From Blastococcus sp. HT6-4 (lineage in GTDB: Bacteria > Actinomycetota > Actinomycetes > Mycobacteriales > Geodermatophilaceae), in NCBI RefSeq assembly GCF_039679125.1, contig NZ_CP155551.1:806001-870000 (forward strand): 64,000 nt of DNA, given 5' to 3'. Shown piece after piece: positions 29,066 through 32,050 of this stretch. The position numbers and the translations under genes were made by a program. How positions within the stretch are numbered: the stretch's first letter is position 1; each line of letters starts with the position of its first letter. Under the pieces are notes generated by a model. That model ran no database searches and had not been told where the DNA came from. It was given only the letters and a program-made list of their open reading frames with translations.

Positions 29066-29106
29066 GGGTGCAGTGTGCGCCGCCGCCGGGATGCTCCTAT
29101 GGATCG

Positions 29107-30195
29107 TCAAGCCGCCGGAGCGAGGTCGTTGGTTGGGTGAGCGGGGCGTAGGACGTAGTAGAGCTCGCGGGCGATCATGCGCTTGAGGCAGCGGATGATG
29201 TCCTTCTTCGACAGGCCTTCGGTGGTGCGGCGTTCGACGTAGGCGCGGGTGCGTGGGTCCCAGCGCATCCGGCAGAGCACGATGCGGTAGAGGGCGGCGT
29301 TGGCCTGTCGGTCTCCGCCGCGGTTGAGCCGGTGGCGGTGGGTCTTGCCCGAGGAGGCCGGGATCGGGGCAACGCCGCAGAGCATGGCGAAGGCCGGCTC
29401 GGAGTGCAGCCGGTCGGCGTTCTGTCCGACGGTGACGAGCAGCTGGCTGGCGACGTCGGCGCCCACGCCGGTGCAGTCGAGCAGGTCGGGGTTGATCTGG
29501 GCAACCAGCGGGCCGATGAGGTCGTCGAGCTCGTTGATCTCCTCGCTGAGGAGCTGGTGGCGGCGGGCCAATGAACGCAGCGCGCGCTTGACGGCCTGCT
29601 CCGGCTCGCCGATGCGGTTGAGATCGGGGCGCAGCCCGGCGCAGGTGCCGATCAGCGTGACGCCCTTGAGGCCGCGCAGCTGGGCGCGCAGCGGCTCGGG
29701 AGCGGTGACGATCAGCGACTTGATCCGCCGCTGGCAGTCCGCCCGCTGGTCGATCGCGCTGCGACGGGCCACCCGCAGGTTGCGCAGCGCCTCCACCTGC
29801 CCGCTGCGGTCCTTCGGGGTGCCGGTGCGGGTGCGGGCCAGCGCGGTGCGGGCGGCGGCCTCGGCGTCGAGCGGATCGGACTTGCCGGCGAACCGGCGGG
29901 TCTTGCGGTCGGGCCGGTCGACCTCGACCATCGCCACGCCCTCGACGGCCAGGTGCCGGGCCAGCCCGGCGCCGTAGACGCCGGTCCCCTCTACGCCGAC
30001 GACCAGCAGCACCCCGAACCCGCGCAGCCAGGCCAGCAGTTGCCGGTAGCCGGCCGCGGTAGCCGGGAACTGCCGGTGGCCCAGCAGCCGCCCGGCGCCG
30101 TCCACGGCGGCAGCGGTGTGGGTGTCGGAATGGGTGTCCACGCCACCGGCCACCTGGACCTGGCCCGGGACGATCTCTGGTGCGATGGTGGTCAT
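29107..30195 (-). CDS. IS110-family RNA-guided recombinase (transposase)
   Basis: 362 residues. N-terminal DEDD/RuvC-like domain with the first Asp in GGVDTHSDTH, Glu in VGVEGTGVYG and the paired Asp in GKSDPLDAEAAAR. A coiled-coil linker follows, then the Tnp_20 domain with LLDCTGVGADVASQLL and the catalytic-serine region PIPASSGKTHRHRLNRGGDRQANAAL. All key residues are present, so it looks active. The ATG at 30195 (TTIAPEIV) is preferred over an upstream start. The stop codon lies 6 bp from the right-end donor sequence and forms part of a TTGACG box. Confidence 0.95.
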   Translation of the reverse strand: MTTIAPEIVPGQVQVAGGVDTHSDTHTAAAVDGAGRLLGHRQFPATAAGYRQLLAWLRGFGVLLVVGVEGTGVYGAGLARHLAVEGVAMVEVDRPDRKTRRFAGKSDPLDAEAAARTALARTRTGTPKDRSGQVEALRNLRVARRSAIDQRADCQRRIKSLIVTAPEPLRAQLRGLKGVTLIGTCAGLRPDLNRIGEPEQAVKRALRSLARRHQLLSEEINELDDLIGPLVAQINPDLLDCTGVGADVASQLLVTVGQNADRLHSEPAFAMLCGVAPIPASSGKTHRHRLNRGGDRQANAALYRIVLCRMRWDPRTRAYVERRTTEGLSKKDIIRCLKRMIARELYYVLRPAHPTNDLAPAA

Positions 30196-30249
30196 CGCCG
30201 TCCTTCTCGCTCGCAACCGACAGGGCGGCACGCACCGCCGGGCGAACGG

Positions 30250-30410
30250 ACAAGACAGTGATGGGTGCCTGCTGGCACAGGCTCCTATGAAGTCACACCG
30301 CCACGACCGGTGAGTGCAGGCAGCCCCGCAGCGGACCGAACCGACAGATCCCGTTGAAGACCCGAAGTCAGTCAGCCGAAGGGTCAGGAACGACCGCTGC
30401 GGGGCAGCGC
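30250..30410 (-). ncRNA. candidate bridge RNA of the IS110 element, all four guides readable
   Basis: Minus-strand RNA encoded between the left end and the transposase. 5' stem-loop: CGCTG/CAGCG (30395-30409). Target-binding loop: left target guide TCGGCTGAC (30379-30371) is identical to the host flank at 30432-30424; right target guide CGGGAT (30353-30348) complements the other flank (29087-29092). A 12-bp stem, 30323-30334 with 30394-30405, can close this loop. Donor-binding loop: left donor guide CATAGGAGC (30289-30281) is identical to the element's right end (29101-29093); then a GTGCC-AGCA-GGCAC hairpin (30278-30265); then right donor guide TCACTG (30261-30256), complementary to core plus left end (30419-30424). 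Exact 5' and 3' ends are estimates. Confidence 0.85.
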
Positions 30411-30424
30411 CTACATCCTCACTG

Positions 30425-32050
30425 TCAGCCGACGCTCGACGCCGCCAGCCGCCGTTGCAGCTCCGCCACGCAGCCGGGCAGGTCCGCCGCCGCCGGCAGC
30501 GGGCGGGCCAGCCAGAATCCCTGGGCGTCGTCGCAGCCCAGCCGGGCCAGGTCGTCCCAGGTGGCGCGGGTCTCCACGCCCTCGGCGACGACGCGCAGGC
30601 CGAGGCTGTGCGCCAGGTCGATGGTCGAGCGCACGATCGTCCGGTCGCTGGCGTCGAGCTCCATCGTCTGGACGAAGGAGCGGTCGACCTTGAGCGTGCC
30701 CACCGGCAACCGGGTGAGGTAGGCCAGCGAGGCCTGCCCGGTGCCGTAGTCGTCGACGGACAGCTCGACCCCCAGCTCCCGCAGCCGGTGCAGCACCTGC
30801 AGGGCGCGCGCCGGGTCCTTCATCGCCGCGCTCTCGGTGATCTCCAGTTCCAGGCACGATGCCGGGACGCCGTGCTCGCGCAGCGACTCGGCGACGCGGT
30901 CGGCGAGGCCGATGTCGAGCAGGCTGCGGGCGGAGAGGTTGACCGCCACGGTGAGGGGGAGGCCGTCGGCGCGCCAGCGCCGGCAGTCGGCCAGCGCCTG
31001 CCCCAGCACCGCTTCGGTCAACGGCCGCACCAGGCCGGTCTGCTCGGCCAGCGGGATGAACTCCGACGGCGGCACCAGCCCCCGCTCCGGGTGCTGCCAG
31101 CGGACCAGCGCCTCCACGCCCCGCACGCGGCCGTCGGCGAGCGCCACCCGGGGCTGGTAGTGCACGACCAGCTCGCCCTCGCGGATGGCGCGGCGCAGGT
31201 CCCCGAACATGCTCAGCTGCCCGGGGGCGTCGGCGTCGAGGGAGGGCCGGTACACGGCGGTCCCGAGATGGTCGGCCTTCGCGGCGTACATGGCCACGTC
31301 CGCGTGCCGCAGCAGGTCGGCGGCGCTGCCCCCGTGGACGGCGATCCCGCAGCTGCCGTCGACCTCGAGCGTCAGCCCGTCCACCGGGAAGGGGCGCCGG
31401 ATCGCCTCGAGCGCACGCTCGGCCACCTGCACGGCCTCACCCGCCCCGCAGCCCCGGAGCAGCACCACGAACTCGTCGCCGCCCAGCCGGGCCAGCACGG
31501 TCTCCTCCCGCAGCTGCGCGGCCAGCCGGTCGGCCACCGACCGGAGGAGCGCGTCGCCGACGTGGTGCCCGAGGGCGTCGTTGACCTCCTTGAACCGGTC
31601 GAGGTCCATGAGCAGCACCGCGACCGCCGGGCCGCCCGCGAGGGAGTCGGCGACGGCGGCCTCGAGGTCGTCGGCGAGCGCGGCGCGGTTGAGCAGGCCG
31701 GTGAGCGGGTCGTGCCGCCCCCGGTGGCGCAGCTCGTCCTCGATCTGGCGACGGGAGGCGACCTCCGCCTTCAGCTCGTCGGACCGGCGCTTGCCGAAGA
31801 CCATCATCAGCAGGTGGGAGAAGGCCAGGACCAGCACGACGTCGTCCGCCGGCCCGCTGAGCAGCTGCGGCCAGTCCCACGCCACGCCGGCCACGGCGAA
31901 GGCCACGGTGAGGAGCAGGACCACGGCCGCCTCGCGCAGGACGCGGGTCCTGAGCGTGGCGATGCCGTCGACCCCCTGGGTCCGCACCACGTCCACCCCC
32001 TCTGCCGTCGTTCGTCCCGATCGACCACCCGGGGTGCGGGCTTGAGACAT
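30425..32050 (-). CDS. membrane-anchored diguanylate cyclase/phosphodiesterase (GGDEF-EAL)
   Basis: 541 residues. Two N-terminal membrane helices (about 37-75), a short linker, a GGDEF domain with intact LARLGGDEFVVLL, and an EAL domain with intact VEALVRWQHP, NLSARSL, ELEITESA, VDDYGTGQASL and KVDRSF and EGVE. Both c-di-GMP synthesis and hydrolysis motifs are complete. There is no separate sensor domain. The ATG at 32050 is used; a GTG a few codons on is an alternative. The IS110 element starts directly after the stop, and the stop codon is part of its target site. Confidence 0.93.
   Translation of the reverse strand: MSQARTPGGRSGRTTAEGVDVVRTQGVDGIATLRTRVLREAAVVLLLTVAFAVAGVAWDWPQLLSGPADDVVLVLAFSHLLMMVFGKRRSDELKAEVASRRQIEDELRHRGRHDPLTGLLNRAALADDLEAAVADSLAGGPAVAVLLMDLDRFKEVNDALGHHVGDALLRSVADRLAAQLREETVLARLGGDEFVVLLRGCGAGEAVQVAERALEAIRRPFPVDGLTLEVDGSCGIAVHGGSAADLLRHADVAMYAAKADHLGTAVYRPSLDADAPGQLSMFGDLRRAIREGELVVHYQPRVALADGRVRGVEALVRWQHPERGLVPPSEFIPLAEQTGLVRPLTEAVLGQALADCRRWRADGLPLTVAVNLSARSLLDIGLADRVAESLREHGVPASCLELEITESAAMKDPARALQVLHRLRELGVELSVDDYGTGQASLAYLTRLPVGTLKVDRSFVQTMELDASDRTIVRSTIDLAHSLGLRVVAEGVETRATWDDLARLGCDDAQGFWLARPLPAAADLPGCVAELQRRLAASSVG

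Follow-up and report, generated by a model that had tools for sequence, protein, structure and literature searches.

An IS110-group insertion sequence of Blastococcus with a predicted bridge RNA and insertion sites at stop codons

The window analysed here, a stretch of 64,000 nucleotides from Blastococcus sp. HT6-4, carries at positions 29093-30424 on the minus strand an insertion sequence of the IS110 group, 1,332 bp in length if the C at both ends is counted. Its recombinase gene (29107-30195, minus strand) codes for 362 aa with DEDD_Tnp_IS110 and Transposase_20 domains, both exceeding their Pfam cut-offs (PF01548, 82.7 bits; PF02371, 64.3 bits), and this combination of a DEDD RuvC domain with a C-terminal Transposase_20 domain places the protein in the IS110 family. 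ISCro4 and IS621 were the only solved structures in the PDB found to be related to it. The catalytic E (VEGTG), two Ds (KSDPLDA) and the S of ASSG align with these two proteins, the register of the serine presuming a two-residue tag in the PDB chain; the first catalytic D (VDTH) is present in the recombinase sequence, but outside this alignment. Noncoding sequence amounts to 229 nt before the ATG and 14 nt after the stop codon, as in the IS110 group rather than in IS1111.

Four copies of the element, identical over 1,332 bp, are present in the Blastococcus genome. Their common insertion site is (T/C)CGGCTGA-C-ATCC, with C at both junctions and with the left and right flanks CTCGGCTGA / ATCCGACC (copy 1), GCCGGCTGA / ATCCCCCG (copy 2), GTCGGCTGA / ATCCTCCC (copy 3) and GTCGGCTGA / ATCCCGGC (copy 4). 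The target of the window element reads TCGGCTGACATCCCG. Its left part, TCGGCTGA, lies at 30425-30432 (minus strand) and includes, at 30427-30425, the TGA stop codon of an upstream GGDEF-EAL gene, whilst its right part, ATCCCG, lies at 29087-29092 (minus strand) next to the core C of the right junction, 29093. The right end of the element, which is the left donor, is CATAGGAGC (29093-29101, minus strand) and is conserved in relatives. The sequence-only reading had named copies at dissimilar sites as evidence against it; the other copies occupy sites resembling TCGGCTGA-CA-TCC. Uninterrupted alleles from sister species end at the very base claimed for the left boundary: leuS terminates there with ...FVLG-TGA (L123, L125, L128 and L130), and the GGDEF-EAL gene has its TGA end at the same place (L139-L144). 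The left boundary is backed by these alleles, the right flanks of which have diverged. By pattern search, no intact CGGCTGACATCC was left in the own genome, where the four free GCTGACATCC sites are a poor fit to the left guide, with 2 or 3 mismatches over the 8 left-target bases as judged by eye; sister genomes contain nine intact CGGCTGACATCC 12-mers.

The leader upstream of the recombinase gene contains four short segments, all on the minus strand, that match the target or the donor. The left target guide TCGGCTGAC (30371-30379) equals 30432-30424, the right target guide CGGGAT (30348-30353) complements ATCCCG at 29092-29087, the left donor guide CATAGGAGC (30281-30289) equals the right end of the element at 29101-29093, and the right donor guide TCACTG (30256-30261) complements CAGTGA of the left end at 30424-30419. 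All four had been proposed in the sequence-only reading and proved exact at these coordinates, and their order, left target, right target, left donor and right donor guide (LTG, RTG, LDG, RDG), matches target and donor as had been stated. In the remaining three copies the right flank reads ATCCGA, ATCCCC or ATCCTC and matches the right guide no further than ATCC or ATCCC, the agreement past ATCC being weak in some of the own copies. A search with Rfam covariance models, suggested earlier as a check, returned no match at E up to 1, the predicted bridge RNA being without a matching Rfam family.

Chance similarities in a GC-rich leader might be thought to account for the four matches. In first-order Markov leaders with the composition of the real one, segments 1-4 arose with probabilities of 0.0022, 0.038, 0.00008 and 0.096, respectively, so that the right-hand guides, with six bases each, have a chance of 4-10% apiece. 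Nevertheless, none of 40,000 such leaders contained all four segments in order, and the covariation of guides and flanks across 30 elements, to which none of 100,000 shuffles came up, refutes an explanation that we consider practically untenable.

The set of related elements covered the genus and its family, further actinobacteria and two MAGs of Trueperaceae, and the left flank was compared in 30 elements represented by 52 copies. The left target guide agreed with its own flank in 6.77 of 8 bases on average, against 4.89 (SD 0.17; maximum 5.75) after permutation of guides among elements, with 0 of 100,000 permutations reaching the observed value; at the five most variable positions there were 3.99 matches to the own guide against 2.35 permuted. 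The right target guide, compared in 18 elements, gave 5.03 of 6 matches against 3.95 permuted (0 of 100,000 as high), and all these guide statistics are somewhat overstated, as elements are partly dependent, guides are shared and segments were partly sliced by hand, although the size of the effect is large. Among individual cases, the element of genome G005 has a leader 90% identical to ours with the guide TCAGGTGAC, to which the flank TCAGGTGA corresponds exactly in 5 of 6 copies, and that of G008 has the guide TCAGGAGAC with the flank TCAGGAGA in 3 of 3 copies. Guide CTGTCTTAC faces flank CTGTCTTA in Microbispora, and CCGCATAAC faces CCGCATAA in Streptomyces cadmiisoli. On the right side, the guide and flank pairs include GCCGAT/ATCGG (G040), GGCGAT/ATCGCC (L019) and CCAGAT/ATCTGG (L244). 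The earlier expectation for related copies was thereby borne out, target guides following the flanks and donor guides following the ends in 30 related elements. It should be added that in one subgroup (G041, G081 and G092; L184-L189) left guides match the flanks in only 4-6 of 8 bases, perhaps owing to looser targeting or to older insertions; the right target guide region of this subgroup is constant, GGCTGAGAT.

The same comparison bears on another possible explanation, namely that the site is a fixed stretch of DNA recognised by the recombinase protein and that the leader matches are mere copies of this site, serving for instance in regulation or as a decoy. This is very improbable, since flank and guide change together in short segments within a compensated structure, and since leader bases neighbouring the guides stay constant while the guides change. 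Furthermore, bridge RNA function has been shown for IS621 (PMC11208160) and seekRNA function for ISEc21 (PMC11187229).

The leader folds better than its shuffles by 3.6 SD (z -3.6). The 12-bp stem pairing 30405-30394 with 30334-30323, described previously, is perfect; its 5' arm (30394-30405, minus strand; helix 3), which shows compensatory changes, and its 3' arm (30323-30334, minus strand) are those of the target loop. The hairpin GTGCC-AGCA-GGCAC of the donor loop (30265-30278, minus strand; helix 7) sits between segments 3 and 4, likewise as described. Within the consensus structure of 18 leaders, 96.8% of pairs were standard, and 10 pairs, with 38 such cells, were changed on both sides, against 6.0 and 15.5 in shuffles (0 of 500 as high). 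Pairing fell to about a third when partners were slid by one base, a control that leans toward the structure, which had itself been obtained from this alignment. Of all helices, the one enclosing the target guides varied most and also had the strongest support, with compensatory changes in 5 of 6 scored pairs. Such a stem closed the target loop in 17 of 18 single folds, and the donor loop was closed in 13 of 18. A secondary structure with two loops is conserved among these leaders. As stems turn over, the consensus energy from RNAalifold was modest for the full leader, and single folds and pair counts served as complements to it; in the RNAalifold consensus for the whole leader the left end is also paired with the right donor guide, and within the RNA such a pairing would be in competition with donor binding.

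The donor guides CATAGGAGC and TCACTG are nearly constant among relatives. Where they do vary, L239 has CATAAGAGC in the right end and in the left donor guide alike, and L020 and L242, which begin with CTGTGAGG, carry CACAG in place of CACTG, the right donor guide becoming TCACAG or CCACAG where the left end is CTGTG (L242, L020). Altered left ends were also seen in the relatives L082 (G009) and L164 (G103), namely GAGTGAGG and ACGTGAGG; in L082 the similarity of the leader ends after about 124 nt, short of the donor loop.

A dinucleotide CA, up to which the matches run at both ends, had been taken for the core. CA is indeed present at both junctions here, but the core shared in the clade is C alone, at 30424 (minus strand) in the left junction, with the A at 30423 belonging to the left end of the element. 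Junctions are C-A on the left and C-T on the right in L240 and L243, C-A and C-G in L025, and C-T and C-A in L020; in these four the base after the C agrees on the left with the right donor guide and on the right with the right target guide. As the base after C is set independently on the two sides, C is left as the shared core, and relatives with a C-T or C-G right junction rule out the dinucleotide. The arrangement of IS621, with a core dinucleotide in all four pairings, was not found, as the right target guide ends before the core C. In L025, the copy of an actinomycete MAG, an additional A separates the left target from the core (L025: 2640-2660); on its right side, G instead of A follows the core and is matched by the guide CGGGAC, which pairs with the flank GTCCC. 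Just 3' of the right donor guide lies TC (30254-30255, minus strand), invariant as UC in the 18 aligned leaders. In IS621, handshake bases pair after strand exchange (PMC11208158), and by analogy the UC may be such bases and would then form pairs with GA in the stop codon of the target.

The left target ends, in all four own copies, with the in-frame TGA stop of a long open frame that has a third-position GC of 0.95-0.98, a point that the sequence-only reading had missed. The genes upstream, named by reading their sequences, are those for leucyl-tRNA synthetase (leuS), a membrane transporter, a histidine-phosphatase-like protein and the GGDEF-EAL protein. Coding stops were scored strictly, a frame having to show 100 or more open codons and a third-position GC that was highest and no lower than 0.8; elements with guides ending in a stop triplet, own copies included, had 24 of 40 copies at such stops. 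CTGAC sites in the window were at coding stops in 24 of 141 cases (17%), the free near-sites of the own genome in 0 of 4, the free exact CGGCTGACATCC sites of sister genomes in 4 of 9, and the G005 and G008 copies in 0 of 9. Occupied and free sites taken together did not differ significantly (Fisher p 0.065), which would be expected if the guide itself aimed at gene ends, and from these counts the aim at gene ends is written in the guide.

Survivorship could also explain the stop position, insertion being less specific and copies enduring only where they lie behind stops; this would bear on how the target is understood and not on the bridge RNA itself. The free sites of sister species lend it some weight, the motif being rich in gene ends without any insertion, yet we hold it to be rather unlikely. 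Most related elements have the stop triplet in the guide itself, the G005 and G008 elements with their other guides are at coding stops in none of 9 copies, and every 12-base match in the own genome is occupied, which gives little indication that hits have been selected. Returning to the aim written in the guide, we lean slightly towards an actinobacterial IS110 lineage in which guides spell a stop codon and its context (for example GGCTGA-C-ATCC, CGCCTGA-C and CGCATAA-C) as an RNA-programmed safe-site strategy, the core being a single base and the target base after it being left to the right guide. No description of stop-codon targeting by IS110 elements was found in the open-access literature.

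The G005 and G008 elements are about 86-90% identical to the window element and sit in palindromic repeats of the form AGGACCC...GATCAGG(T/A)GA...CCTGATC...GGGTCCT, which, judged from guides and flanks, would represent a natural change of target. A pattern search for uninterrupted copies of this repeat (GATCAGGNGACATCC) gave no match, and one shorter relative of it is present in G008. As seen from the flanks of L055-L066 (G005) and L067-L072 (G008) and from L198, dispersed REP-like palindromes of Blastococcus host these elements.

Guide matches, copies, uninterrupted alleles, covariation of guides and sites, conserved fold and stop position argue, in our view very strongly, for an IS110-group element with a bridge RNA that pairs with target and donor, landing behind stop codons. 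Expression, RNP assembly and strand exchange would follow the course established for IS621. A bridge RNA of ~170-185 nt, with one loop for the target and one for the donor, would arise by transcription of the 5' noncoding leader, the circular form being the most likely template. By means of this RNA, two dimers of the recombinase (RuvC/DEDD plus serine) would pair the target with the circular donor, the bottom strands being read by the left guides and the top strands by the right guides around the shared C. Strand exchange at this C would lead to insertion in one orientation with no further duplication. As the target guide spells a gene end (C-TGA-C), the element would land directly behind the stop, leave the upstream protein intact and do little harm.

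IS900, also of the IS110 family, reportedly inserts adjoining start codons and ribosome-binding sites, whereas the window element uses the other gene boundary. In Mycobacterium avium subsp. paratuberculosis, IS900 rarely interrupts coding sequences (PMC8141618). The IS110-family elements ISPa11, ISPpu9 and ISPpu10 make strict use of a harmless repeated site, REP sequences (PMC1525189); the relatives in G005 and G008 resemble them in their use of palindromic repeats, whereas the window element uses gene ends.

The window element is an IS110 bridge-RNA element and thus of a known kind, 85.7% of IS110-group elements having already been predicted to carry bridge RNAs (PMC11208160); the one-base core and the stop-codon aim are the added results. 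It shares with IS621 the RNA in the leader, the LTG-RTG-LDG-RDG order, two internal loops and the strand logic of the guides, as well as the DEDD and serine recombinase, the donor-loop hairpin and, just 3' of the right donor guide, possible handshake bases (PMC11208158). IS621, in contrast, aims at REP sequences and not at a stop codon, and each of its four guide pairings takes in the core, a CT dinucleotide (PMC11208160), whereas the window element shares only C and its right target guide begins after it. The seekRNA element ISEc21 (PMC11187229) is similar in having its leader upstream of tnp, insertion without target duplication, a transposase in the size class of 345-385 aa and natural redirection in a relative (ISMch6). 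Unlike the window element, it aims inside IS3-family transposase genes, and its account, as far as consulted, describes only target-matching RNA, whereas the donor guides are resolved here too.

Raw sequence accordingly suffices to decode the guides of a bridge RNA, and comparison alone to check them; ~30 naturally reprogrammed pairs of guide and site are supplied with a donor loop that is nearly constant. The one-base core is relevant to target design for bridge recombinases. If true, the stop-codon aim suggests how a genome-mobile element limits damage to its host, and it would offer natural guides for insertion directly behind genes. Finally, TTGAC in the right end (29106-29110) and GGATG in the left end (30414-30418), both on the minus strand and both conserved, would be separated by ~17-18 nt in the circle and could form a promoter at the junction, with a weak -10 match.
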